Source: a bacterium
GTDB taxonomy: Bacteria; Zhuqueibacterota; Zhuqueibacteria; Residuimicrobiales; Oceaniaggregativiventaceae
NCBI GenBank assembly: GCA_029565675.1
Contig: JAKQNP010000032.1
Location: forward strand, 248,001-312,000
Length of the DNA: 64,000 nucleotides
Direction of reading: 5' to 3'
The notes under the pieces are model-generated. The model saw nothing but the letters and a program-made list of their open reading frames with translations, was not told the origin of the DNA and made no database searches. Each line of letters begins with the position of its first letter. The stretch's first letter is position 1. Positions 8,015-46,493 of this stretch are shown here, in pieces. The position numbers and the translations under genes were made by a program.

Positions 8015-10063
8015 ATGGATTCTGCTGAACTTTGTTATAACGAGGATCTCCGCCGCAGTGTGGCGGATGCCAAAACAAATTTGGATGGTGCGCATTATTT
8101 TTTCCTTGGCAATGGCCACATCCAGGCCGGGGTGCAGATATGCCGGGGGAAAATCGGCACTCCCGTCGGTTTGCTGATTATGAATCCGGAAGTCTTTGGG
8201 CGCAAACAAAACTCCTTGACATTTGATCCGCGGCGCGGCATTGCAGCGACAGCGCTGCAGCTTGACTGCAATGGCAAAAAACAATCTCTGCAGAGATCGA
8301 GCATCGACAGCTGTTGGAAAAAAGAGATCAGGGTGCCGGTTGTACAGGTGCGTTGGAAAACCCGAACTTTGCACGTCGAGGAAGAGTTTTATTGTCCTGA
8401 TCTGGTGCAGGCTCGTCTGGTGCGGCGGGTGACCCTCTGCAACCGGTCGAAGGACCAATTCGGCTTGTGCATCAAGACCGGTGTACCCGGAAAAATGATC
8501 AACAGCTCGGTGGACTTGGCACCCGGCGCGATGACCACCCTGGGTTTTCAATACCTGTTGACTGCCGATAAGGTGGAGATCGAACTAACCGATCAATTGC
8601 ACATCTCCGCGCCAACAACGGCGTATTGGGAAAAAACAACGTCATTCCAATCAGACAATGACTTTATCAATCATCTCTTTAGATCGGCAGCCGTTCAAAT
8701 CACCAGCAACATGGCCGCCAATGGTCGGTTGGACGCGAGCATTTGGCAATACAACCTTGAATGGGTGCGGGATCAATCGTTTATTGCGATGGGATTGGTT
8801 CTTGCGGGGCAATTTGAGCGCGCCCGGGTGTTGCTGCAGCGGCTGTTGACTCACGCGGTCAGCCCGGAAGGCGACACCATCGATTCCGGCCAGCGCCGAG
8901 AGGCAGCAGACGTCGAGCTGGATCAAAACGGCGAACTGCTCACGGCAACAGCGCTGTACACGAACTGGACCGGCGACCTTTCGTTGCTGAAGGATAATTG
9001 GCCAACCATCGAACGAGTGGCAGATTTTCCCTTCCGCCCTGAATTCGTCCACCAGGAAAGCGGGATGCTGCACAACCGCCGTGAATATTGGGAGCGTTCG
9101 GCGTTGCACGGCGTCGAGGACGGTTTTGAACTGATGTATCAGATGTGGGTGAGCCGCGGCCTGCGCTGTGCATCTGAACTCGCCACACGACTTGGTCATG
9201 AGGAGACAGCGAAGCGGTGGCAAAAACGAGCTCAGGACTTGAAAACCACCATTCTCCAGCATCCGCGTTATGGCATGATCGACAGGGGCAGGTTGGTCAA
9301 AAGAAAAGGATTGGATGGCGAGGTACAGCACAACTTGCAGCCGGAGTCGATTGATATTTTACCGCCGGGAGTTCCCCTGTCTCAACCGATACCCCATCCG
9401 CTCAATCCGGACAGTTCAGCTGCTTTGCTGATCGCCTGGGAGGAGATCGACCCTCAGGATCTGTTGGCCCGGGAGACATTTGCGGATTTGGAAAAGTTGT
9501 GGAACCAGCGATGGTCTGGTGGGGGCTATGGCCGTTATCATATCGACAGCGAACCTGACTCGCCCGGGCCATGGCCATTTGCGAGTTTGTTCATCGCCCG
9601 CGCCTTGTGCCAGGCCAACCAACCTGCAGCGGTCTGGCGTGTGTTGCGTTGGCTGGAGAGGTTGCCCGGAGCCGAATCCGGTACCTTTTTCGAATTTTAT
9701 GGCAAACGACCGATTCCCCCTTGCCCGCAAGTCGGTTTTACTCCATGGACTTTTGCCGAAACCCTGCTGCTGTTGGTGTATCAGATCCTGGGCATCCGGA
9801 CGAATCCTGCGGGCGTGCAAATCCGACCGCGCTTGCTCACCGAGCTGGGAGAGATTAAGTGCAATCTGCGCATGGGTGGGTATAGTTTGAATTTGCGCAT
9901 TTCATCAAACCTGGATAAAGGCATGGTGATCGAGGTGGAAGGATCGACTTTTCGCCTGTTGCCAGACGGGGTTGAATTGCCGGCGCTTGTTCGGGATGTG
10001 ACAGTGCGGATGGCCGTTCCGGCGGGCACGGAACTGGATAAAGGTGGCGGCATGGACAAATGA
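8015..10063 (+). CDS. Six-hairpin (alpha/alpha barrel) glycoside hydrolase, GH15/amylo-glucosidase-like
   Basis: A 682-residue protein with no signal peptide, so probably cytosolic. An N-terminal beta-sandwich (1-225) precedes an (alpha/alpha)6 domain with characteristic motifs: WQYNLEWVRDQSFIAMGL (substrate-binding W-x-R-D), GVEDGFELMYQMW, SPGPWPFASLFIARA and PQVGFTPWTFAETLLLL. A short C-terminal beta domain follows. The architecture is shared by glucoamylases, amylo-alpha-1,6-glucosidases and GH65-type phosphorylases, so cleavage or phosphorolysis of alpha-glucosides is likely. Which family it belongs to cannot be settled by eye. It is the last gene before a 424-base gap. Confidence 0.72.
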   Translation: MDSAELCYNEDLRRSVADAKTNLDGAHYFFLGNGHIQAGVQICRGKIGTPVGLLIMNPEVFGRKQNSLTFDPRRGIAATALQLDCNGKKQSLQRSSIDSCWKKEIRVPVVQVRWKTRTLHVEEEFYCPDLVQARLVRRVTLCNRSKDQFGLCIKTGVPGKMINSSVDLAPGAMTTLGFQYLLTADKVEIELTDQLHISAPTTAYWEKTTSFQSDNDFINHLFRSAAVQITSNMAANGRLDASIWQYNLEWVRDQSFIAMGLVLAGQFERARVLLQRLLTHAVSPEGDTIDSGQRREAADVELDQNGELLTATALYTNWTGDLSLLKDNWPTIERVADFPFRPEFVHQESGMLHNRREYWERSALHGVEDGFELMYQMWVSRGLRCASELATRLGHEETAKRWQKRAQDLKTTILQHPRYGMIDRGRLVKRKGLDGEVQHNLQPESIDILPPGVPLSQPIPHPLNPDSSAALLIAWEEIDPQDLLARETFADLEKLWNQRWSGGGYGRYHIDSEPDSPGPWPFASLFIARALCQANQPAAVWRVLRWLERLPGAESGTFFEFYGKRPIPPCPQVGFTPWTFAETLLLLVYQILGIRTNPAGVQIRPRLLTELGEIKCNLRMGGYSLNLRISSNLDKGMVIEVEGSTFRLLPDGVELPALVRDVTVRMAVPAGTELDKGGGMDK

Positions 10064-10150
10064 GTCGCATTCATTTATCGAGGCGCAAAGAAATTATATC
10101 TAACGACTAAGGCTCTCTTTTTTTTAATCTTTTTGTCGTTTTTACTTGTT

Positions 10151-10180
10151 TTGCGCAAGTTTTCATATTATCTTTATAAT
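10151..10180 (+). promoter_or_regulatory. Candidate sigma-70 type promoter
   Basis: Perfect -10 hexamer TATAAT at 10175-10180, with a weak -35 (TTGCGC, 10151-10156) at 18-bp spacing in an AT-rich tract. It would give a leader of about 300 bases ahead of the activator gene at 10488. Confidence 0.4.
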
Positions 10181-10195
10181 GTTGTCGCAGACAAC
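10181..10195. promoter_or_regulatory. Small perfect dyad at the predicted start site
   Basis: GTTGTC-GCA-GACAAC starts one base after the TATAAT box, so it would cover the transcription start. Its position suits an operator; the arms are only 6 bp, so chance is possible. Confidence 0.35.
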
Positions 10196-10487
10196 AATGG
10201 ATCCATCCCACAAACGATTGCTGGGGAATAAAAGAAACCCGCCGAAACTTTTCACTGAACCGCGATTGCAGACCAGCCCTGGTGCCTTAGGATAGGCTCG
10301 GAGACGATTCGAACTGCGACACCATATTTTTCACCTCCAGAAAAAAAGTTGTTGATCCAAGCATCTGGTTGGCCATTTGCAGCACATGATCATTTCGACC
10401 GTAAGGCCAAAAGATTCGTTTGTCAACAAGGGTTTTGCATATTGTGCCGCGCGATCGAAATCGCATTGCTGAGAGTAGGAAAAAGCA

Positions 10488-11864
10488 ATGTCGGGCATCC
10501 TGTTTGCGCATCAAAAGCGTGAGGTTTCCACCGAAGCACAACAATGGCTCAAGGAATTGGGCATCGAGTGCATTGTTGTCGAATGTGGAGTCAATGCAAA
10601 AAAGGCGATCGAGAAACTCAAGCCGGATCTTATCTTTACTCAAATCGATCTGCCGGATGAAGATGGTTTTGAGGTGTTGAACTTTACCCGGGAATGGAAT
10701 CCCCATACGCCAGTCATTTTCATGGCAAACCGTTCAAATGTCGCTCTAGCGGTCAAGGCGATCAAATGCGGCGCTTATGATTATATCGAATTGCCGCTGA
10801 CACGGGAAAAGCTCTGCGACATGGTGGCCAGCTCCGAACACTTGATTCACGCTTTTCCCTATGCCGCCCTGGCAAGAGAAACGGCTCATTTTTTTGAAAT
10901 TGAAAACGATCTGGGTTATCCCCCCTCGCTGAAAAAGTTCAACCATCTCCTGATCAAAGTCTCGCGCACCAATGCCAATGTCTTTATCTCTGGTGAATCC
11001 GGAACCGGCAAAGAGCTGGTCGCCAAAACCATCCATCACTTGAGTGAGCGGCGCAACAATCCCTTTATTCCGCTCGATTGTGTGGCCTTGCCAAGCAGCT
11101 TGCTCGAGAGCGAATTGTTCGGCTATGAAAAGGGGGCATTCACCGGCGCGGTACAATGCAAACCTGGTCTGATCGAGTTGGCAAACGGCGGCACGCTGTT
11201 CCTCGATGAGATCACTGAACTGGATATGTCACTGCAAGCCAAATTGCTGCGCGTCATTCAGGAGCGCCAGTTTCGCCGAATCGGCGGACAAAAAATGATC
11301 CGTGTCGATATCCGGATCATTTCAGCCGCAAACAGAAATCCGGAATTGGCGGTCAAACAAAACCGGCTGCGCCAAGACCTTTTTTATCGCCTGCATGTGG
11401 TGCCGATCGTCTTGCCGCCTTTGCGTGAACGCAAAGAGGATATCCCCTTCCTCCTTTCATTTTTCCTCAACAAATATTGCCGCATTTATAAGCTTAAATC
11501 ACTCAAAATCTCCGCAGAAGCCATGAAAGTGCTGCAAATCTACGTCTGGCCAGGGAATGTCCGCGAATTGCAGAATATCGCAGAGCGGTTGGTTTCTGTC
11601 AGCGACAAAGAGATCATCAATCCGCAAGATCTCCCGGAAACTATTCTGCTTAATACAAGCCCGATCGTCGAGAAAGTTGAAGCGCTCAGTTTTAAAAAGG
11701 CCAAACAGAGATACTTGCAGACATTTTGTGCCCGATATTTCGCATCGTTAAGCAAAAAATATGACGGCAACATTTCACAAATGGCCAAAGAGGCCAAAGT
11801 AAGCCGCAGCACCATCTATAAAATCATCAAAACTGACAACTTGCAAATTGGAGGCACCAGATAA
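10488..11864 (+). CDS. Sigma-54 activator (NtrC family) with a degenerate receiver domain
   Basis: Bacterial enhancer-binding protein of 458 residues. The AAA+ domain is complete: Walker A GESGTGKE (169-176), GAFTGA sigma-54 contact loop (216-221), Walker [10 protein letters not shown] (234-242) and an arginine-finger region (LRQDLFYRL). A Fis-type helix-turn-helix closes the protein ([19 protein letters not shown]). The N-terminal receiver fold (1-120) lacks all active residues: the acidic pair is replaced in ILFAHQK, the phospho-Asp position is Gln52 ([11 protein letters not shown]), the Thr/Ser is Ala80 and the Lys is Leu102 (YIELPL). It therefore cannot be switched on by phosphorylation. 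FleQ and VpsR, which control biofilm matrix genes, are known cases of activators with altered receivers. A sigma-54 promoter lies 204 bases downstream. Confidence 0.93.
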
Positions 11865-11949
11865 AAAGGCCTGTATTCCAACTGCTCAAATCTGCAAACA
11901 CCACCGATCTGATTGAAAATTAAGTGATTAGTATTCTATTCCCCGCAAT

Positions 11950-11967
11950 TGTACAAAAAACTGTACA
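11950..11967. promoter_or_regulatory. Candidate upstream activating sequence (enhancer) TGTACA-N6-TGTACA
   Basis: Two self-complementary TGTACA hexamers separated by six bases form an 18-bp dyad. Its centre is about 135 bases upstream of the start site expected from the sigma-54 promoter at 12068, the usual range for an enhancer-binding protein site. The obvious candidate to bind is the activator encoded just upstream. Confidence 0.45.
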
Positions 11968-12067
11968 TCCACCGCTCAGAGCACCTGAAAACCGATCAAC
12001 AGTCGCACGGCTTATATATAATTGTTTTATATGTTTTTAAATCACCAAAATGCCTTGCTGTAATATT

Positions 12068-12083
12068 TGGCACGTTTTCTGCT
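12068..12083 (+). promoter_or_regulatory. Sigma-54 (RpoN) -24/-12 promoter
   Basis: TGGCACG (12068-12074), four bases, then CTGCT (12079-12083). The invariant GG (12069-12070) and GC (12081-12082) are exactly ten bases apart. Compared with the consensus TGGCACG-N4-TTGCW only one base differs. Transcription would begin near 12094 and run into the receiver gene at 12321 and perhaps into the EPS locus. Confidence 0.75.
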
Positions 12084-12223
12084 TTACCAAATGCAGACAA
12101 CGCGTTTTATTCTTCTACCTCTCCTCATAGGATAGGCATCTTTAGGCTGCGCAACCAGGTTTTCATTGACGAAAAAAATCAGGCTTCATCGGATCGCGAT
12201 AGGCTGAACAAGTGATTGCCGAT

Positions 12224-12243
12224 CGAGGGATTTCTGTCCCTCG
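12224..12243 (+). other. Leader hairpin downstream of the sigma-54 promoter
   Basis: CGAGGGA (12224-12230) pairs with TCCCTCG (12237-12243) across a TTTCTG loop and is followed by TTTG. The T-run is too short for a confident terminator; it may be a weak attenuator or an RNA-stability element in the 5' leader. Confidence 0.4.
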
Positions 12244-12282
12244 TTTGACTGCCGGATTTCACCATAGCCGGTCGGCCCATGA

Positions 12283-12297
12283 ATCGTTGATAACGAT
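12283..12297. promoter_or_regulatory. 15-bp palindrome before the receiver gene
   Basis: ATCGTT-GAT-AACGAT, a perfect dyad with 6-bp arms, ends 23 bases before the ATG at 12321. It could be an operator or a translation-control hairpin. Confidence 0.35.
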
Positions 12298-12320
12298 CGC
12301 ACTAAATTTATGAGGTCTGG

Positions 12321-12719
12321 ATGAAATCTTCTGTCGTCGTCGCCACCGAGGACCCTGGGATCATCAGTCTTCTGGGCCAGATTTTGGTGAAACGAGATTG
12401 CAATCTTTATATCACCAAATCAAAATTGCACTCTATACTCAAGGTGCTGACCCAAGAAGTCGCCTATTTTATCCTCGATTTCGAATTGGCAAACAACTCG
12501 AATTTGGAATTGATCAACATCATCCGCAGAATCCGGCCGCGTTTGCCGATCATCATTTTTTCCGAGGATAACTCGGAACACACCATCGGTGAAATTGCTG
12601 AATTGGGAATTTTCTATTATGCGTTGAAACCACTGAATGTGGAAGAAATAGAAAAAGTTGTCGATGCCGCAGAACAGTTTGTCCATGAGCAACAGAGCAT
12701 GAACTGCGCCTATATCTAA
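12321..12719 (+). CDS. Stand-alone response-regulator receiver (CheY/Spo0F-like)
   Basis: A single 132-residue receiver domain without an output domain. Unlike the activator upstream, its active site is complete: acidic pair Glu10-Asp11 (VVVATEDPG), phospho-acceptor Asp53 (YFILDFEL), Ser81 (IIIFSED) and Lys103 (YYALKPLN). GAGG at 12312-12315 precedes the ATG. It probably takes a phosphate from a distant histidine kinase and acts by protein contact. Its place between the phosphorylation-blind activator and the EPS genes suggests it feeds a signal into EPS control; the partner is unknown. Confidence 0.85.
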   Translation: MKSSVVVATEDPGIISLLGQILVKRDCNLYITKSKLHSILKVLTQEVAYFILDFELANNSNLELINIIRRIRPRLPIIIFSEDNSEHTIGEIAELGIFYYALKPLNVEEIEKVVDAAEQFVHEQQSMNCAYI

Positions 12720-12730
12720 CTCAAATACGC

Positions 12731-12777
12731 AAAAAAAAGCTACCAGGGGACTCGGCCAAGTCTTTGTCCTGGTAGCT
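12731..12777 (-). terminator. Intrinsic terminator facing left
   Basis: AGCTACCAGG (12738-12747) pairs perfectly with CCTGGTAGCT (12768-12777). Read on the - strand the stem is followed by eight T; on the + strand there is no T-run after it. It therefore ends transcripts coming from the right, although all neighbouring genes read rightward. Confidence 0.6.
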
Positions 12778-12824
12778 CGTGGCAGCAATCCAGTGGAATC
12801 TTCATTCCTCTAGAAGGCTGTTTT
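12731..12824 (-). ncRNA. Possible ~95-nt small RNA, antisense to the direction of the locus
   Basis: A - strand promoter can be drawn just to the right of the left-facing terminator: -35 TTGGAA (complement of 12854-12859), 17-bp spacer and -10 TATATT (complement of 12831-12836). A start near 12824 and an end at the T-run near 12731 give about 95 nt. A 21-codon frame opens at ATG complement 12804 and stops inside the terminator stem, so a leader peptide is another reading. A perfect + strand TATAAT (12833-12838) overlaps this promoter and could serve the EPS genes. Confidence 0.3.
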
Positions 12825-12937
12825 ATTTTAAATATAATTGATTTGTCCAATTTTTCCAACTTTTTTCATCGCATTTCGCAACCATTGGCCAAAATTCGCG
12901 CGGTTTGACGTGGGGCACCCTGAGAGAGGGGAAAAAT

Positions 12938-13669
12938 GTGAAAAAGAACTTGTTGATATGGGCTCTGTTGATCGGTAGCACCGCATCGGTCGGGGCTCAA
13001 ACCGATCCAAACCGCCCGTATGCCAATGGATTTGCTATCTCCAGCCAACCGGTCGGCGCGACCGTCTATCTGGAAGGCGAAATCATCGGCAAGACACCCT
13101 GCCGTTTTCCGCATGACATCACCGGCAATTACCGGCTGATGGCCGAAAAAATCGGCTATGAGCGCTGGAAGATGGATGTACAATTTGGCAATGCCCCAAT
13201 CGACTCCATCAACATCTCCCTCCACCCCTTGCGGCGCTCAAAAGCCTTTGTGCGCTCGCTGGTCTTCACTGGATGGGGTCAGGCTTATTCGCAACAACCG
13301 TTGAAGAGCCGGATCTTCACCTCTGCCCAGATGCTTGCTATTCTGGCCGCCGGATGGTCACATTGGCAGTATAGCGAGAAACAAGATAAATACGAACTCC
13401 GAACAGCTGAGTATCTGCAGAAAAGTAAAAGTTTTGCCTCGGAACCGGCAGCTTGGCAACAAGTCGTCGCAGCGCATGATGGTTTGAACAAGGCTTTTGA
13501 CCTGCGGCAAGCGCTCATCGCAACAGCAGCAGTGATCTATGCCTATAATCTTTTAGACGCTGTTTTGTTTTTTCCCCAACACAAACGGGAAATCGAGTTT
13601 GTTCCGTTTACCCAAACATGGGGATATGATGGGCCGACAACGACGTTCGGTTTGGTCTGGAATTTTTAA
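12938..13669 (+). CDS. PEGA and DUF5683 domain envelope protein
   Basis: A 243-residue exported protein with a signal peptide (VKKNLLIWALLIGSTASVGA). A PEGA domain (about 28-80: FAISSQPVGATVYLEGEIIG) is followed by a DUF5683-type segment (RSLVFTGWGQAYSQQ) and a hydrophobic helix around 184-204. PEGA domains are known in surface-layer and envelope-binding proteins. The start is GTG 12938 with GAGAGAGGGG at 12922-12931; the ATG-like frame from 12905 adds residues without signal character. It is the first gene of the EPS locus, so a structural role at the export site is a fair guess but not shown. Confidence 0.75.
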   Translation: MKKNLLIWALLIGSTASVGAQTDPNRPYANGFAISSQPVGATVYLEGEIIGKTPCRFPHDITGNYRLMAEKIGYERWKMDVQFGNAPIDSINISLHPLRRSKAFVRSLVFTGWGQAYSQQPLKSRIFTSAQMLAILAAGWSHWQYSEKQDKYELRTAEYLQKSKSFASEPAAWQQVVAAHDGLNKAFDLRQALIATAAVIYAYNLLDAVLFFPQHKREIEFVPFTQTWGYDGPTTTFGLVWNF

Positions 13670-13702
13670 AAAGCTTGCCTGGCCAATGGAGAAGGGAGAA
13701 GC

Positions 13703-15625
13703 ATGAAATCGCACCAAAAGTGTACCGGCACCCATGGTTGCCAAAAGGCTCCTTTTACCCTACATACTGGCAAGAAAATCCGCCATTTTTCGATCTGCAC
13801 GATCTCTGTGTGTCTTTTCCTTATCGTTTCGAGCTGCGGAAAAGACTTTGACGACCCGGTTTCTGTCCACCCCACGGTCTATCCCCAAGCACCGCTGGGA
13901 ATAACAGCGCAAGTGGCCGACAACACCGTTTTTCTTTCCTGGTCCTATCGCTCGCTGCAAGAAAGTGCAGCTTTCAACATATATCGCCGCGACACTTTGT
14001 TGACGGAGATGGCACTTTTAAGCCATTGTGACTCCCTGGTGTTTATCGATACAGAGGTGCGAAATGGCATGCCCTACACGTATTGTATCACTGCTGTCAA
14101 CAGTGATCAATACGAGGGACCGCCCTCCGCAGAAATCGTCGCCACACCGGGGGTCTATTCGATTTCTATCAACAACGGTGCTGAATTCGCAAAAACAGCC
14201 GATGCCAATTTGAATATCATCGGTCCGGCTGGAGCGCAGTTGATGCAGATCGAAAACGATACTCTGCCACATGGCGCTTCGTGGTTGCCTTTCGTTAGCA
14301 CAAAACAATGGACATTATCGCAAGGGGATGGCAACAAACGCATCTATGTCATCTTTCGCGACGCAGACGGCAATCAAAGCACGACAGGAATTCATGATGA
14401 CATCATCCTGGACTCTCATGCGGCCATCTCCTCCTTCCGGATTGCAATCGAAACCGATTATATGCTTGCCGGCGACACCCTCAGAGTTACCCTGGTTGCC
14501 GGCGAACCTTATGGAACCGCTTCATTCGATATCGGCAACCTCATCCTCAACAAGCGTTTATTTGACGATGCCACTCAAGGAGATGAACTTGCCGATGACG
14601 GCACCTACACTCTCGATTATGTCATCCCGCCCTATCTGGATGTGCAAAATGCCGCCATCATCGGCAAATTCACCGATCGCCTTGGGAATGTTGCAGAAAA
14701 TGTACAGGCCAACAAGACCTTGACAATTCGCTCACTGCCCACACCGGTAGAACTCTTCACTCCTGAACCCGTGCAAGGAAAAGAGGGTGCCGTGCAATTG
14801 GCCTGGACCATTTGCCAGGATGGCGATTTTCTCAATTACCGGCTCTATCGCTCGACCGATCCATTGTTGAAAAAAAACGCAACCCTGGTTCGCATTTGCA
14901 CCGAACAGACACAGACCGCCTGTCTGGACTCACTGCTAGAACCCAAGATCGATTATTATTATCGTGTCCTGGTAAGCGACCAGCAGGGGCTCTCCTCCGC
15001 CAGCAACATCGTCAGAGTCCAATTGCCGGATTTTTATCCGCCACAGAGTCTTGAGCTGTACACCCCTGTTCTGACTGAGGCAGCTGAGGTTGCCATCTCG
15101 TGGCAAACCGCAACGAGCACCGATTTCGCCTCCTATCGATTGGTACGCTCGACGACGCCCGCTCTCACCGCAACCGTGCCGATTTTTTACACAAACGATC
15201 GCAGGGTGAGTTTTTATCTCGACACCGATCTCAAGTGCGAAACGACCTATTATTATCGCCTTTACCTTTTCAATGAGCGGGGGGTGGCGACAGGGTCCAA
15301 CATTCAGTCTGTGGTTACCCCGGCCAATCAGCCGCCACAAGCCGTTCAATTGGCAGCGCCGGTGGCTACAGTGGCCAAATCTCTGCAACTGGTGTGGAGC
15401 CGCAACCGCGACAGCGATTTTGATTCTTATCGTCTCTTTCGCTCAACAACGCCAATCATCGATACAGCCCAGGCGCCCGTAACGATCATCAATATCCAGG
15501 ACACCAACAGTTTCACCGATCAGGGATTGGCCAGTGCCAAAGTTTATTATTATCAAATTTTTGTATATGATTCTCAAGGCTCGAACACCGGAAGCAATCT
15601 GGTCAGCGGTCAGACGCTTCCTTAA
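13703..15625 (+). CDS. Fibronectin type III repeat lipoprotein
   Basis: 640 residues with an unusually long basic leader, a hydrophobic stretch and a lipobox (LFLIVSSCGK), so it should be a lipid-anchored envelope protein. It has an N-terminal Fn3 module (about 60-145), a middle beta-rich region (150-340), and three tandem ~98-residue Fn3 modules (about 345-440, 442-540, 541-640). The tandem modules share the pattern DF-x-SYRL-x-RSTTP and end in TYYYRLYLF/VYYYQIFVY followed by GSN. GAAGGGAGAAG precedes the ATG. Its neighbours suggest a role as an outer-membrane scaffold or adhesin of the EPS export machinery. No enzyme motif is present. Confidence 0.8.
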   Translation: MKSHQKCTGTHGCQKAPFTLHTGKKIRHFSICTISVCLFLIVSSCGKDFDDPVSVHPTVYPQAPLGITAQVADNTVFLSWSYRSLQESAAFNIYRRDTLLTEMALLSHCDSLVFIDTEVRNGMPYTYCITAVNSDQYEGPPSAEIVATPGVYSISINNGAEFAKTADANLNIIGPAGAQLMQIENDTLPHGASWLPFVSTKQWTLSQGDGNKRIYVIFRDADGNQSTTGIHDDIILDSHAAISSFRIAIETDYMLAGDTLRVTLVAGEPYGTASFDIGNLILNKRLFDDATQGDELADDGTYTLDYVIPPYLDVQNAAIIGKFTDRLGNVAENVQANKTLTIRSLPTPVELFTPEPVQGKEGAVQLAWTICQDGDFLNYRLYRSTDPLLKKNATLVRICTEQTQTACLDSLLEPKIDYYYRVLVSDQQGLSSASNIVRVQLPDFYPPQSLELYTPVLTEAAEVAISWQTATSTDFASYRLVRSTTPALTATVPIFYTNDRRVSFYLDTDLKCETTYYYRLYLFNERGVATGSNIQSVVTPANQPPQAVQLAAPVATVAKSLQLVWSRNRDSDFDSYRLFRSTTPIIDTAQAPVTIINIQDTNSFTDQGLASAKVYYYQIFVYDSQGSNTGSNLVSGQTLP

Positions 15626-15648
15626 TTCCTTTACAGAGGAGCTCGGTT

Positions 15649-16611
15649 GTGAAACGACTTGAACTTCACATGGTTTGTGCATGTTTGCTCCTGGGATTTA
15701 TGGTGACAGTTACCGCCCAAACCCCCAAGAATTATATCATCGGTCCAGGAGATCTGCTGAGCATCGCGTTCTGGCAAGACCAGGAGATGAATGTGACCAC
15801 TCTGGTGGCGATGGACAGCACAATCGTGCTTTCAGTGGGTGGCACACTGAGGGCAGCAGGATTGACAGCCGATCAGTTGGCGGAAGAGATCATCGACCGG
15901 GTATCGCTGTTCAATCGAAGAATCACCAGCGCAACAGTCACCGTCAAAGAGTATGGCAGTCGCAAAGTCTATATCATGGGCAAGGTACAAAACCCCGGCA
16001 AATACAGTTTTTCCACATTACCTGGGCTGTGGGATTTGCTTATGGAGGCTGGCGGTCCGACATCAGATGCCAACCTCGGCGGGATTTTATTGATACGGAC
16101 CAGCGAAAACGGGACGCTGGCCCAAAGCATCGATCTGGCCGATGCTTTGCGGCGCAACTCTGTGCACACCTTGCCAGCGCTATTGCCTGGGGACAATATC
16201 TATGTGCCGGAAATCATTGGGTCCTCGGTGGCGCCTGGCATGAATGCGGTACAGAATCAAGAAAACGTCCTGTTCATCTATGGCCAGGTAGGCACGCCAG
16301 GGGTCCACACTTTTAACAAAACGCTGAATTTGCTGGAGGCACTGATCACTGCCGGAGGTCCGACCCCGCAAGCGCGTTTGAGCCAGATACGGGTGATCCG
16401 CAAAATCGGCGCTTATTCGACCGTCACCCATGTGGATGTCGATCGCTACATCAAGGGCTCTGTTCCCAACCTATTTCTGGTACAAGGAGGCGACACCATC
16501 TTTGTACCGCGCAAGCTCACAATTCGCGAAAGTTTTGTCTGGGACCTATTCATGATCGCCGCAGCGGCAGTGGTTACTGCTGCAGTCTATGACACATGGG
16601 CAGATCGATAA
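15649..16611 (+). CDS. Polysaccharide export protein, Wza family with SLBB domains
   Basis: Outer-membrane polysaccharide export channel of 320 residues. After a Sec signal (ending VTVTAQ) come the Poly_export domain (YIIGPGDLLSIAFWQDQEM ... SATVTVKEYGSRKVYIMG) and two SLBB segments (GKVQNPGKYSF and GQVGTPGVHTFNKTLNLL, each followed by AGGPT). A C-terminal hydrophobic helix (DLFMIAAAAVVTAAVY) matches the Wza pore helix. There is no obvious lipobox. The start is GTG 15649 with AGAGGAG upstream. It works with the co-polymerase and kinase in the next genes. Confidence 0.92.
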   Translation: MKRLELHMVCACLLLGFMVTVTAQTPKNYIIGPGDLLSIAFWQDQEMNVTTLVAMDSTIVLSVGGTLRAAGLTADQLAEEIIDRVSLFNRRITSATVTVKEYGSRKVYIMGKVQNPGKYSFSTLPGLWDLLMEAGGPTSDANLGGILLIRTSENGTLAQSIDLADALRRNSVHTLPALLPGDNIYVPEIIGSSVAPGMNAVQNQENVLFIYGQVGTPGVHTFNKTLNLLEALITAGGPTPQARLSQIRVIRKIGAYSTVTHVDVDRYIKGSVPNLFLVQGGDTIFVPRKLTIRESFVWDLFMIAAAAVVTAAVYDTWADR

Positions 16612-16628
16612 AAGTGAAGGAATTGCCA

Positions 16629-18176
16629 ATGCTTCCCACAAGCAGCACCAAAGACTTGCAAATCTGGATGCAAATGATACGCAAAAAATGGTACATCCCG
16701 GCCTTGGCTCTTGGACTTTCGATCTGCATCGGTTTATTTTTGGCCTTCACAATCGATCCAGAATACGAATCACGGACCTCGATGATGGTTCTGGACACCG
16801 ACCTCCTCTCCGGATCAAATTTGCGTTTTGTCCCCAGTGTGCCGCAGCTGCAGGAGATCGAATTTCTCCGCCGGTTGATCACCAGCAACGACTTTTTGTT
16901 GCTGGTTTACGACAGCCTTGATATCGAGATGGACGCCAAGATGATCCAGCAGAGCGAGGATCTCCAAGCGCAATATCCCCATATGCCGAGAAATGAACTT
17001 ATGCAACAGCTCTATATCGAGCATCTGCAAAAGCGCATTGGTGCACGATCCACCAGTTACAACACCTTTGAAATACGCGCACGGGGCAAAACTCCTGAGC
17101 AAGCCTATCAGCTTTGCTCTTTAATCACCCAGATGGCCATCGATGAGACCCAGAAACGCCAGCTGCAATCGGTCAACGCCGCCAGTTCGTTAAGCCATGA
17201 ACTGCTCTCCATATATCGACAGCGGATGATTGAAGCGGAAAACCGGCTTCGGACTTTTAACAGCGGCATGACCCGCAGTGGAATCGACAACAGCCAGTTG
17301 AGTGCTGAAAAAACCGCAGAAATACAATCCATTGTTCTGGCCACCCAAATCGAGAAAAAAAGCACCACCGACGAAATAGAGACATTAAAAAACGCAACAG
17401 CTGCTGCGCCTGTCGCTTTCAGGCGCGACCTTGATCGTGCAATAGCAGGAATTCGAACCAGATTGCTCAGCAGAACGGAAAATGTTTGCATGTTGTATCG
17501 CCAATTCACCTGGCGCGACCTTGAAGTGGTACAGCTAAACGAAGAGATCGGTCGTTTGAAAAAAGAATTGCATGAAAAAATAGAGTCATCGATAAACAAG
17601 TACAGCGCACAATTAAGTTCCGAAATCCGTGCGCAACTGATTAAACTGGAAAAATTGGAGATCGAATTAGCCATCATCAACGAAACACTCGAAAGTTTTG
17701 GTATGATTCTCAATGCCCACAACGAAACGATCAAGAATGAACCTTCGCAGCAGGTCTTGCGCGAGCGATTGCTGCGCGAGATCAACACCAATCGCGATAT
17801 TTACGAGCTGTTGTCGCAGCAGATGCAGGGCACCGAAATACGCGAGTCCGCGCAGCTGAGAGAAGCCAAGATGCGCTATCAAATTCTCGCGCCGCCGCAA
17901 CGACCGCTCGAGCGAATCAAGCCTAATCGCAAGCGGATCATGATGATAGCAGCTTTTCTGGGCGGTCTGTTGGGACTGGGAATTCTCGTCGGGCTCGAAT
18001 CCATCGATCTATCGATCAAGTACCCGGAAGAAGTGGTTGAATATCTCCGCGTTCCTGTTCTGGCAACAATACCGAAAATAAAGATGCCCACAAAGCAGAG
18101 AAAATGGATCAAAGAGATGGCCATTTTGATCACTGCACTGCTAACCCTGATGATCTTTGTGTTGATAATCTTTTAG
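16629..18176 (+). CDS. Polysaccharide co-polymerase / chain-length determinant (Wzz/GumC-like)
   Basis: Inner-membrane protein of 515 residues with a Wzz helix near the N-terminus (WYIPALALGLSICIGLFLAF), a long periplasmic coiled-coil region (about 150-390), the Pro/Gly-rich second helix region (QRPLERIKPNRKRIMMIAAF) and a third helix at the very C-terminus (ITALLTLMIFVLIIF). The BY-kinase domain is not fused; it is the next gene. AAGGAA at 16617-16622 before ATG 16629 is preferred over the ATG at 16596, which overlaps the exporter gene by 16 bases. It sets polymer length and links the kinase to the exporter. Confidence 0.88.
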   Translation: MLPTSSTKDLQIWMQMIRKKWYIPALALGLSICIGLFLAFTIDPEYESRTSMMVLDTDLLSGSNLRFVPSVPQLQEIEFLRRLITSNDFLLLVYDSLDIEMDAKMIQQSEDLQAQYPHMPRNELMQQLYIEHLQKRIGARSTSYNTFEIRARGKTPEQAYQLCSLITQMAIDETQKRQLQSVNAASSLSHELLSIYRQRMIEAENRLRTFNSGMTRSGIDNSQLSAEKTAEIQSIVLATQIEKKSTTDEIETLKNATAAAPVAFRRDLDRAIAGIRTRLLSRTENVCMLYRQFTWRDLEVVQLNEEIGRLKKELHEKIESSINKYSAQLSSEIRAQLIKLEKLEIELAIINETLESFGMILNAHNETIKNEPSQQVLRERLLREINTNRDIYELLSQQMQGTEIRESAQLREAKMRYQILAPPQRPLERIKPNRKRIMMIAAFLGGLLGLGILVGLESIDLSIKYPEEVVEYLRVPVLATIPKIKMPTKQRKWIKEMAILITALLTLMIFVLIIF

Positions 18177-18234
18177 CTGACCTGTCCAAAGGGTACAAGG
18201 ACTTATTCGGTCAAAAATTAAAAAGGGAGTGGTG

Positions 18235-18942
18235 ATGAACGAGAGAGCGCTTAACAACAGCATCTATCAATTCAATGAAAATTCGCCCTGCTTTTCCGAC
18301 TTTTATCAACTTTTGAGCAAACTGGCGGCTCGCGACTTTGGCGAACATAAAAAAGTGCTTATGGTAACCAGCGCGACAGAAGGAGAGGGGAAAACAACAG
18401 TGGCCTCTTATCTGGCGATAACCGGGACGCTCTCCTCCTCCGACTATTTTGTCCTCATCGATGGGGATTTGCGCAAGCCGCAGCTGCATAAAAGATTCGG
18501 ATTGAGCCGTGACGGCGGACTGGCGGACATTTTGCTAAACAAAAAGCGGTTGACAGAGGTCATCCATAAAACCGCTTTTCGCAACCTGCATCTGATCACC
18601 GCCGGGAGGTATGAAGACAAACCCTTTCAATTGTTGCAGCTCAACGAAACCAAAGAGTTGATCAACCACATTCGCCTGTACTACAAACTGATTCTGATTG
18701 ATGGGCCGCCCATCATCCCTGTCAGCGATGCCCTTCGCCTGGCCGAGGTCGTCGACGGTATCCTCATGGTGGTAAAAGCCGGCAAGACTCCACGCACCGT
18801 CATCAAACGCGCCATCGACGTCCTTACCGAATCCGGCTGCCCACTTGTTGGCGTGGTTTTGAACGATCGGAATCAAGTGTTGCCCTATTACTATCAACAG
18901 AGGTACTATCGCTACAATTATTCACCGACCAATCACGATTAA
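18235..18942 (+). CDS. Bacterial tyrosine kinase (BY-kinase, CpsD/Wzc catalytic type)
   Basis: A 235-residue P-loop kinase. Walker A TSATEGEGKTT (45-55), Walker A' LIDGDLRKP (74-82) and Walker B LILIDGPPI are all present, as is the C-terminal tyrosine cluster (LPYYYQQRYYRYNYSP) that is autophosphorylated in this family. GGGAG lies five bases before ATG 18235; two in-frame GTG codons directly upstream are less likely starts. It should act with the preceding Wzz-like protein to control EPS polymerisation and export. Confidence 0.92.
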   Translation: MNERALNNSIYQFNENSPCFSDFYQLLSKLAARDFGEHKKVLMVTSATEGEGKTTVASYLAITGTLSSSDYFVLIDGDLRKPQLHKRFGLSRDGGLADILLNKKRLTEVIHKTAFRNLHLITAGRYEDKPFQLLQLNETKELINHIRLYYKLILIDGPPIIPVSDALRLAEVVDGILMVVKAGKTPRTVIKRAIDVLTESGCPLVGVVLNDRNQVLPYYYQQRYYRYNYSPTNHD

Positions 18943-43619: not shown

Positions 43620-43778
43620 TGGGTCGACTCCATGCCAGGCTGGTGCGGTACTCTTCAGCCCTGTACGGTATGCAGATACGTTGAAGCCAGACCGAACCTC
43701 TATTTTGCTGCTGCACCGTTTGATAGCGGTCTTCACTGCAGCGCAATTCATCCACAACATCTAACTTTCGAGGCAAAC

Positions 43779-46493
43779 ATGAAAAAAGCAAATCGGTTCT
43801 TGCTCCTGTTTTGCCCAATATGGTTGATCACCATCAAGGCGGGCACCGTGTCTGCACAAGAGGATTATCTCTCGGCGATCGAAAGAGAGATTCGCTTTGC
43901 CGGCAAAAAGTCAGCCGACTATATCATTTCCAGCCATCCCCGATTGTGGGCGATTGGTGAAGAAGAGTGGGATGACCAAAAGGTTGGCTCATTGGCATGG
44001 CGAATCGTCCATGGTGAACTGCTGGATCCTGAGAGTCCTGCCAATGACCAGGCCAAATACGAATTCATGTATCTGGCCTATTTGGCGGATGATCCGGAAA
44101 TGTATGGAGTTGCCGACAATGGGACGTTTAGCCGTCGCTTCTTATGGACAATTTTGGCCGGGCACGCGCGCAAATATGGTTGGGATCAAAAACTTCCCTC
44201 CAGCCTTGATCCCTATTCTTCAGGAGGCTATCATCCTCAGCACACTGCGGATGAGTATTATGCCGATGCGCGCAACAAGCTCCTGGCTCTGGCCAAGATT
44301 TCCGGTTTGTATGAATGGCCCTATTGGATTTGTATTTATGGTTCAATCGGATATGATTGGCTGCTGGCAAGCCGATATTCATCTGATGACCCTGTGCTGT
44401 CATCTGCCGATCAGAAATTCATGCAGCAAGTGCTGATCCAGAACGCCGAATATGTCAAATCACGCGTCAATGGCAAAGAGCATTTTTTTATCGCCTCTGA
44501 GATGGCCAACTATGTCTATTGCATGGTCGGCCTGGCTCTGTACGAACCAGAGAGGATAAGTGACCCCACTTACGCCGAGCAAAACAGCAAAGCGCTCGAA
44601 TATCTGCAGGATTTTGATAACCATTGGATTGGTAAAATAATCCCGGCGATGAACGCACAGGGCGGCGACGGCGGTTGGCACGGCACATTTGAATTTATGA
44701 TGCCGGATTTTGACGCAGTCTATAGCGGTGACTCGGTTTTGCCGTGGCACCTGGCTCCGATTCTGTTTGCGCACTATACCGCAACAAGAATGCCGATCGA
44801 GAAATCGATTTACAGCACCGGCTTTATGAAACATGGTGTCGAGTTCCAAAACCAAATGATCAAGCCGGATGGCACCTATTACCCCCCGGCGCCGCCTGAG
44901 GATGCGCGCATGCCATGGATCGCTCCTTTGCGTATGAACTCACGCCGTCGCTTTTCGCAAGATGCGGATCAGAAAAAAATTGCGGAACTGGGAGCCTGGG
45001 TCAGAAACATCAAGAGTCCCGGTTGGTTTGTCAATGCCGGCTCATACGATTTATTCGAACAGACAATTTTTGAAGAGAAATGGATCAATCCGCAACCCCC
45101 GCAAAATCTGGGCTTTGCAGACACCCGCCTATTTGGTCGCTTGGGCTGGGTTTTTCACTGCAGCGACTTTGCCCGAACCGACAGTCCGGCTTTTCTCTTT
45201 GTTTGTCAGCGCTACAATTGGAGCACGTTGGACCCCTATGCGCAGAATTCTTTGTTCATCCACTGCCGAGGAGATCTAATCCACGGCCACACCAATACCA
45301 TGTTGTTCAATGGCAAAGGTCAGCGGCAAATAGACAATTTCCCGACCATGAGCGATGGGGTCGCTGCGTATGCACCGGACTCACAATATGACATCGGGCC
45401 GGGCATTCTCACTTTTCAGAGCAATGAACAATTTGACCTGATCCTGGGTGACGCCTCCAACGCTTTCCCGCACAACGAAGTCAAAAAATATCTGCGCGGA
45501 ATCGTCCATCTAAAAGCAGAACGCCTTATTGTTGTAGTGGATAAAGCGGTCACCGCGACCAACATTTTAAAAACCTGGGCGATTGATCCGATTGCTGCTC
45601 CGCAAAAACTCGAGCAAGAAACAATCAAGATTTCCAACAGCGCCAGCGCCTTGTTTGTCCGCCGCCTTCTGCCTGTCCAGGTCACGGTCCTGCAGCAGAA
45701 CGAAGCTAAATATGCCATCTCTTCCTCGGCAGATGCGGATTCGCTGTTTTTGCATATCCTGCAAATCGCGGATGCAAATCAAACTCTTGCCTCACCCGAA
45801 ATTCTTGTCGACGAAGCGCAGTTGATCGATTCCCCTCCTGGGAGTTTGGGTATGCGAATCAGGGGTTGGAATATCTTTTTTCACAACGACCGAATTTCGT
45901 TGGAAAATGGTGCCCTTGAAGTCAGCTTGGTTTCTTTTACCGGGGAAGCGGCCGACAATGGCGTTCTCCTGCATTGGAGTACTCTTTCAGAGAACAACAA
46001 TCTGGGTTTCGAAATCGAACGCCGCATCGAGGGTGAGGAGTATAAACGGATTGGCTTTATTAAAGGACATGGCGAAGCTCTCGCAGCCATTGACTATGAG
46101 TTTCTCGATAAGAACATTGAGACCGGACTAACCTATTATTACCGCCTAAAACAGATCAATACAGATGGCAGCTTTACCTATTCCGAAACCATTGTCATTG
46201 CTGCATCGCTGCCGATGCAGGCACAGCTCGAACAAAATTTTCCCAATCCCTTTAATCCCAATACCACTATCGATTTTCAGCTGAATGCGGCGTGCAGAGT
46301 ACTGCTCACCATCTATGATCTGAACGGCCGTCATGTGGCAACCCTGGTCGAGCAAGACCAACCGGCGGGATTGTATCATATCAAATGGTCAGGAAAGGAC
46401 AACGACGGAATGATGGTCCCAACAGGTATCTATATCTATCGTTTGCAGATCCCTTCCCAAACCATATTAAAAAAAATGATCTTTATCAGATAG
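43779..46493 (+). CDS. Secreted heparinase II/III-like polysaccharide lyase with type IX sorting domain
   Basis: 904 residues from ATG 43779 with a signal peptide ending TVSAQ. An alpha-helical toroid region (about 20-420: YEFMYLAYLADDPEMYG, WTILAGHARKYGW, IASEMANYVYCMVGLALYE) is followed by a beta-sandwich with FIHCRGDLIHGHTNTMLF, where the His pair and Asn recall the heparinase II/III catalytic region. An Fn3-like module and a sorting domain (NFPNPFNPNTTIDFQL ... PTGIYIYRLQ ... KKMIFIR) end the chain. The frame open from 43632 is longer but lacks a signal at its start. In the EPS locus it may trim or release the polymer, as AlgL does in alginate loci. Confidence 0.8.
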   Translation: MKKANRFLLLFCPIWLITIKAGTVSAQEDYLSAIEREIRFAGKKSADYIISSHPRLWAIGEEEWDDQKVGSLAWRIVHGELLDPESPANDQAKYEFMYLAYLADDPEMYGVADNGTFSRRFLWTILAGHARKYGWDQKLPSSLDPYSSGGYHPQHTADEYYADARNKLLALAKISGLYEWPYWICIYGSIGYDWLLASRYSSDDPVLSSADQKFMQQVLIQNAEYVKSRVNGKEHFFIASEMANYVYCMVGLALYEPERISDPTYAEQNSKALEYLQDFDNHWIGKIIPAMNAQGGDGGWHGTFEFMMPDFDAVYSGDSVLPWHLAPILFAHYTATRMPIEKSIYSTGFMKHGVEFQNQMIKPDGTYYPPAPPEDARMPWIAPLRMNSRRRFSQDADQKKIAELGAWVRNIKSPGWFVNAGSYDLFEQTIFEEKWINPQPPQNLGFADTRLFGRLGWVFHCSDFARTDSPAFLFVCQRYNWSTLDPYAQNSLFIHCRGDLIHGHTNTMLFNGKGQRQIDNFPTMSDGVAAYAPDSQYDIGPGILTFQSNEQFDLILGDASNAFPHNEVKKYLRGIVHLKAERLIVVVDKAVTATNILKTWAIDPIAAPQKLEQETIKISNSASALFVRRLLPVQVTVLQQNEAKYAISSSADADSLFLHILQIADANQTLASPEILVDEAQLIDSPPGSLGMRIRGWNIFFHNDRISLENGALEVSLVSFTGEAADNGVLLHWSTLSENNNLGFEIERRIEGEEYKRIGFIKGHGEALAAIDYEFLDKNIETGLTYYYRLKQINTDGSFTYSETIVIAASLPMQAQLEQNFPNPFNPNTTIDFQLNAACRVLLTIYDLNGRHVATLVEQDQPAGLYHIKWSGKDNDGMMVPTGIYIYRLQIPSQTILKKMIFIR

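Follow-up and report, generated by a model that had tools for sequence, protein, structure and literature searches.

A probable dedicated sigma-54 switch before an exopolysaccharide locus in Zhuqueibacterota, next to a candidate small RNA

At glnA, tandem dyads for NtrC are located upstream of the sigma-54 promoter. Sigma-54 has been linked with the cell exterior in an excerpt of PMC3162934, and an excerpt of PMC1569441 covers PrsK/PrsR in the proteobacterial PEP-CTERM/EpsH systems and, for PEP-CTERM genes, an activator motif accompanied by a sigma-54 site. According to excerpts of PMC7484181 and PMC4671073, the eps locus of Myxococcus xanthus encodes the NtrC-like Nla24/EpsI, a c-di-GMP-binding protein that a kinase phosphorylates, and the single-domain receiver EpsW, which is required for EPS. 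In Vibrio fischeri, SypG mediates sigma-54 activation of the syp polysaccharide locus (excerpt of PMC10162802). Lastly, the pseudo-receiver protein FleQ has no phosphorylation residues and no adjoining partner kinase and responds to c-di-GMP and FleN, and the activating mechanisms of bacterial pseudo-receivers are called unresolved (excerpt of PMC12632262). A literature search combining sigma54, KSB1 and response regulator found no paper.

The locus analysed here lies in a 64,000-nucleotide stretch of contig JAKQNP010000032.1 (the window), and its features are collected in Table 1. An AAA+ sigma-54 domain with the GAFTGA motif, read in the translation, gives the activator its NtrC-type features, together with a C-terminal HTH seen by eye in the alignment, which we take to be of the Fis type. 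A single rpoN match is present in the genome (Sigma54_DBD, 2.8e-63). The Wza and Wzz proteins of the window are closest to XrtA-type models, under whose curated cut-offs the Wza-like (107.7/180), Wzz-like (135.9/278.85) and autokinase-like (140.2/230.65) genes all remain; the last of these passes TIGR01007, the general polysaccharide tyrosine autokinase model (130.7 vs a cut-off of 108.05).

Table 1. Coordinates of the features at the head of the locus, in window positions
Feature	Coordinates	Strand	Evidence
Activator gene	10488..11864	+	Sigma54_activat 6.6e-66, Response_reg 1.6e-17; GAFTGA; degenerate receiver, AAA+ domain, HTH
Distal dyad TGCTCAAATCTGCAAACA, imperfect	11883..11900	.	67 bp upstream of proximal dyad; best profile score in gap
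Proximal dyad TGTACA-N6-TGTACA, TGTACAAAAAACTGTACA	11950..11967	.	exact match; homologous dyads in relatives
-24/-12 promoter GG-N10-GC, TGGCACGTTTTCTGCT	12068..12083	+	12/13 consensus letters in 17-mer from 12067
Predicted leader of receiver mRNA	12094..12320	+	start inferred from -12 element; no special fold (z -0.60)
Stand-alone receiver, 132 aa	12321..12719	+	Response_reg 2.1e-11 and alignments; phosphorylation Asp and Lys present
Candidate small RNA, ~95 nt, two hairpins, 3' U-tract	12730..12824	-	z -5.86, covariation, strand evidence
Sigma-70 type promoter-like site of candidate small RNA, TTGGAA-N17-TATATT	12831..12859	-	9/12
First EPS-locus genes: PEGA/DUF5683, fn3, Wza-like, Wzz-like, tyrosine autokinase-like	12905..18942	+	model matches

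The tandem dyads resemble those of NtrC at glnA, with a spacing here of 66-67 bp (32 bp in locus L038). As with PrsK/PrsR in the excerpt, an NtrC-like activator and a motif upstream of a -24/-12 site are found in an EPS neighbourhood, but the window activator has no neighbouring kinase. Furthermore, PrsK/PrsR target many PEP-CTERM genes there, whereas the predicted target in the window is a stand-alone receiver and no second dyad-promoter site was found in the genome. The activator was rejected as a PrsR proper (TIGR02915, 342.8 vs a curated cut-off of 502.6). Likened by gene type, the M. xanthus eps locus shares an NtrC-like regulator and an orphan single-domain receiver with the window and, with its NtrC-like regulator and EpsW, may serve as a working parallel. 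In contrast, the excerpts of PMC7484181 and PMC4671073 describe no enhancer-promoter between Nla24/EpsI and EpsW, and Nla24 is phosphorylated by a kinase, unlike the window activator with its missing phosphorylation residues. The syp locus is comparable in its sigma-54 activation of a polysaccharide locus; TGTACA as a published site was dismissed, as in the excerpt of PMC10162802 it occurs in primers only. FleQ is similar to the window activator in its receiver and in the absence of an adjoining partner kinase, but c-di-GMP and FleN are named for FleQ in the excerpt, whereas neither ligand nor partner is assigned to the window activator.

The initial annotation had proposed that a TGTACA-N6-TGTACA dyad and a GG-N10-GC promoter lie in the gap between the activator and receiver genes, about 135 bases from the predicted start to the dyad. 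The dyad is present with its exact sequence, the promoter on the + strand has GG at 12069-70 and GC at 12081-82 with 10 bases between them, and the distance from the dyad centre to the predicted start (~12094) is indeed ~135 bp. The weaker distal dyad had been overlooked; it emerged from a profile that left out the dyad of the window itself but kept the same-genus locus L031. Among 2000 dinucleotide shuffles of the 456-bp gap from activator stop to receiver start, a perfect TGT-type 6-6-6 palindrome appeared in 0.15% and a promoter word of equal quality in one. The promoter word alone is little proof, because with the loose consensus (at most two mismatches) shuffles yield as many words as the window does (43.6 vs 44). 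Autoregulation of the activator was considered on the basis of a score-10 word at ~10365-10381 upstream of it and was set aside, as no word in the matching region of L031 scores above 8. A structured leader of the receiver mRNA was also ruled out by its fold (Table 1).

Searches of the 4,426,303-base genome showed that the exact dyad is unique, rather than common away from RpoN promoters. The three places with one mismatch are all within open frames of at least 150 codons, and up to two mismatches gave 93 places vs 57 for the backwards pattern. The relaxed form TGTWCA-N6-TGWACA has one other place in the genome (C44), within a 430-codon open frame. A regulon of many dyads was rejected, the places at C44 and at G003:C187 and C240 all lying within open frames. 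In G016 and G019, an extra TGTTCA-N6-TGAACA-type dyad is found just upstream of an apparently orthologous gene (L212 and L213, near 1501-1518); a promoter word scoring 11 lies 71 bp past the dyad in L212 and is lacking in L213, and the two share no sigma-54 layout. Another dyad, at G019:C334 (L216), is intergenic, with no promoter word nearby.

Analyses of related genomes revealed the gene order activator-receiver-PEGA-fn3-Wza-Wzz in G001, G003 and G016. The five first EPS-locus genes are all found in window order in L032, and likewise in L038 after an extra sugar-transferase-like gene; such a gene lies 3' of the receiver in G016. In L031 (G001), the first four EPS genes are present and the contig ends within the Wzz gene. 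The receivers of two relatives are 86% and 70% identical to that of the window, and the activators 62% and 52%. The dyad is conserved in seven receiver promoters of seven genomes (window, L031, L032, L038, L039, L192 and L179), at 117, 114, 114, 125, 128, 114 and 114 bp, respectively, upstream of the 17-base promoter word. Its type is TGTTCA-N6-TGAACA, with TGTACA-N6-TGTACA in the window and mismatches in L031, L192 and L179. A second dyad is found at -66/-67 in five of the seven (window, L031, L032, L192 and L179, where it and the proximal dyad are the two best profile places) and at -32 in L038, and L039 has a weak candidate at -31 (score 2.1). For this profile, the tested locus and its same-genus partner were omitted (L038/L039, L192/L179), and the window and L031 kept each other.

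Searched as a single pattern, whose letters preclude a match in the window and in the mismatched loci, dyad plus promoter is found in three of the 63 genomes of the class (G003, G016 and G019), each time at this locus; the backwards control has no place in the 63 genomes. A promoter score of at least 10, with GT at -12 allowed as well as GC, was obtained in 19 of 33 activator-receiver gaps vs 1.3 expected, the other 14 scoring below, and a perfect TGT dyad in seven, from four genera, vs 0.08 expected. The scored gaps of L043, L044 and L040 ended at an over-extended receiver start, and separate inspection of L040 gave a score-11 word. Among the relatives' receiver promoters, no clear dyad was found in L040, L045 and others. 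In G012 and G020, we found no activator homologue beside the receiver (over the whole 10.3-kb contig for G012), the closest homologue being on another contig, but the dyads and promoter are still next to the receiver. Thus, the elements are part of the receiver promoter. As relatives share the layout, it is probably real.

Using a receiver profile, matches were collected in 59 of the 63 genomes, and an activator homologue was present within the fetched stretch in 26 of 30 receiver loci. A tree of the AAA+ to HTH part resolved clade A, with 16 rows including the window (100/99), and clade B, with 17 rows (100/100), with L041, L043, L044 and L208 outside both. One pair of each clade is found in this genome. 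The clade-B pair, at G000:C62 (L164, L180), has TTGGCACAAAAGTTGTT with an AGTGGC-type dyad 118 bp upstream; it belongs to a paralogous kinase-activator-receiver set (L180:5725-8957) with its own -24/-12 word, upstream of Wza-like and kinase-like genes. Of the 17 clade-B gaps, 10 contain an AGTGGC-type dyad, detected by pattern without a shuffle control. Eight gaps have both the dyad and a promoter word of at least 9, the dyad lying 107-122 bp upstream of the word. The dyad letters differ between the clades, and therefore only the layout is common to both. The -12 element of clade B is often GT instead of GC, and in loci such as L163, L180, L184 and L185 TTGT often replaces TTGC with TGGCAY kept; RpoN in this lineage may prefer TTGT at this position.

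The genes that follow the pairs vary. Wza-like and kinase-like genes are found downstream in clade-B loci L180, L181, L182, L185, L186 and L191; none were seen in L184, and the sequence of L183 ends just past the receiver. In clade A, L189 is followed by Wzz-, kinase- and transferase-like genes, and L188 and L190 have no EPS-type match. L187, from the outside group, has a transferase-like match only, and L037 a weak Wza-like match. A position at the head of an EPS locus is thus true of many pairs, not of all.

The receiver domain of the window activator has HQ, Q, A and L instead of DD, D, T and K at its active site. Of the two proteins, only the stand-alone receiver has the D and K of a phosphorylatable response regulator; among stand-alone receivers, D is present in 32 of 34 rows and K in all 34. 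Decay and kinase counts over the paired activators are not independent because the rows are related: 25 of 33 are intact and eight are decayed at the active site, with L200 left out as unalignable there and with E for the first D (L186, L196) and S for T (L208) counted as intact. Six kinase queries identified a kinase directly upstream of 24 of the 25 intact activators, L208 being the exception, and of none of the four decayed ones with enough sequence (window, L031, L038 and L045). The upstream sequence of the decayed L032, L039, L160 and L177 is too short to judge. In L033 and L034, which are decayed and have no adjacent receiver, no upstream kinase was found either. The ten decayed rows need three changes on the tree, and the starred branches force at least two. 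Of 80 other activators, the 79 that are readable at this site all keep D.

Between the receiver and the EPS genes, the window and two relatives have a 100-base element in common (window 12730-12829, with the predicted minus-strand RNA running from about 12824 to 12731), from which we built a model. In the 63 genomes, this first model gave 23 matches at E<=0.1 in 18 genomes, three of the matches being the training set. Five of the 20 non-training matches are directly 3' of a stand-alone receiver (G021, G018, G020, G012 and G045), two further copies, in the fetched loci L199 and L181, also follow receivers, and a weak match (E 0.07) lies upstream of the receiver in L037. Genes 3' of other copies code for polysaccharide deacetylase, sugar transferase (second gene), alkaline phosphatase, permease, CobW (second gene), and GWxTD and FadL-like proteins, some under the cut-off. 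With a refined model, 38 of the 63 genomes had a match at E 0.01, and within the phylum the figure was 33 of 82 at E 0.001; most of the strong matches were training members. When this model was run on 1.01 Mb taken from other activator loci, five matches up to E 1 appeared, the best two at 0.0098 and 0.010. In a MAFFT alignment of 24 sequences chosen by the first model, 13 of the 15 pairs of the first hairpin have two-sided changes, with 67 two-sided-change cells where shuffles gave 22.0 (sd 3.9). Of the five covariation measures, one, further pair types, was matched by 27 of 500 shuffles. Among 25 copies, 12 have an estimated RNA length of 87-98 nt, and the others 60-141 nt. No Rfam family matched the element over its gathering threshold, nor did permissive searches yield a match; rli38 on the minus strand was dismissed (23.2 bits vs 49 needed). 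After the clade-B receiver of L180, at ~8983-9035, a long hairpin carries CGGCAA in the loop and may be a diverged version of the element.

Taken whole, these features are best explained by a dedicated sigma-54 switch before the EPS locus, which we consider very likely. The activator would bind both dyads, loop the DNA and open the RpoN polymerase at the -24/-12 promoter, and the resulting transcript would encode the stand-alone receiver. As its own receiver has no phosphorylation residues and no kinase is next to it, the activator would act independently of phosphorylation, and its activity would depend on how much of it is present, on a ligand or on a partner protein. The stand-alone receiver, as the phosphorylatable piece, might relay a signal to the EPS system in the manner of EpsW in Myxococcus. 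RpoN control of the receiver gene, as initially proposed, is the best-supported of these steps and is well supported at the sequence level by the elements themselves, their conservation, spacing and persistence with the receiver gene, the gene order and the presence of rpoN. It is improbable that the dyad instead serves another regulator as its operator, or that it arose by chance as a palindrome next to a genuine sigma-54 promoter under a different activator. At least 30 matches to the activator are present in the genome, and the half-sites differ between clades; but dyad, second dyad and promoter occur at near-fixed spacing at this single locus, and the dyad type changes together with the activator group.

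The initial suggestion that RpoN might also control the 37-kb EPS locus is unsupported so far. After the receiver, a terminator-like hairpin with a T-tract (-14.2 kcal/mol) intervenes on the + strand, which is also the second hairpin of the candidate small RNA, and in the receiver-PEGA gap, sigma-54 words of at least 8 are absent from the window and from L031, while L032 has a single one scoring 8. For these reasons, any control of the EPS genes by sigma-54 is likely indirect or gated, and they probably form a separate or gated transcription unit. One long operon, driven through the receiver gene from the sigma-54 promoter, would account for the colinear, conserved order receiver-PEGA-fn3-Wza-Wzz and for the absence of sigma-70 type sites on the + strand within 10064-13100 under stricter criteria, a point qualified by one 9/12 site on that strand in the receiver-PEGA region under looser ones. 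We regard it as unlikely, since in 11 of 33 pair loci, the window among them, the receiver has a terminator-like hairpin (-10 kcal/mol or stronger) behind it on the + strand, vs 5 of 99 shuffled, and a probable divergent small RNA lies before the EPS genes; this hairpin count slightly lowered our estimate. A + strand riboswitch or antiterminator was our first reading of the gap element, and gave way to the minus strand on strand-cell and promoter evidence. That the element is such a leader, gating EPS transcription, now seems rather doubtful. An open frame of at least 80 codons is downstream on the same strand in 15 of 15 loci, only that strand's frames being weighed, and the second hairpin with its T-tract is terminator-like on the + strand in 11 of 22 copies vs 8 of 132 shuffled (a count that omitted L260 and L271, with no loop match, and gave none for L031, where a scan from the receiver stop found one). 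Against this, strand cells favour the minus strand (23 A-C vs 9 G-T), and four to nine A in the eight or nine bases preceding the stem, a U-tract on the minus strand, are found in all 24 sequences. Promoter-like sites of at least 10/12 are present on the minus strand in 9 of 25 and on the plus strand in 1 of 25 (L201 and L202 being near-copies); that of the window is weak alone, being reached in 0.165 of shuffles. In addition, the 95-nt minus version of the window (-39.6 kcal/mol) folds more tightly than the plus strand (z -5.86 vs -4.31). Together with the covariation, this suggests that the element is probably an undescribed, ~95-nt antisense-strand small RNA.

A broader reading, to which we give somewhat less than even weight, is that of a lineage-specific EPS node, in which a phosphorylation-deaf activator would act through a genome-unique, two-dyad enhancer on a phosphorylatable receiver, beside a new antisense small-RNA family of ~95 nt. 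It would include at least two decays of the receiver site in the activator family, each without an adjacent kinase where visible. If so, receiver and small RNA would jointly couple signalling to polysaccharide synthesis. For this group, the locus supplies a putative circuit for regulating polysaccharide production that is open to testing. The activators form a series from kinase-coupled to apparently phosphorylation-deaf before the same type of target, and the locus points to a candidate small RNA family absent from Rfam.

Two other proteins are worth recording. A second NusG-domain protein is encoded in the genome on a different contig (L249, G000:C31:187043-187318). Further along the window, positions 43632-46493 code for a 953-aa protein with a C-terminal T9SS type A sorting domain (Por_Secre_tail, 35.2 vs a cut-off of 23).
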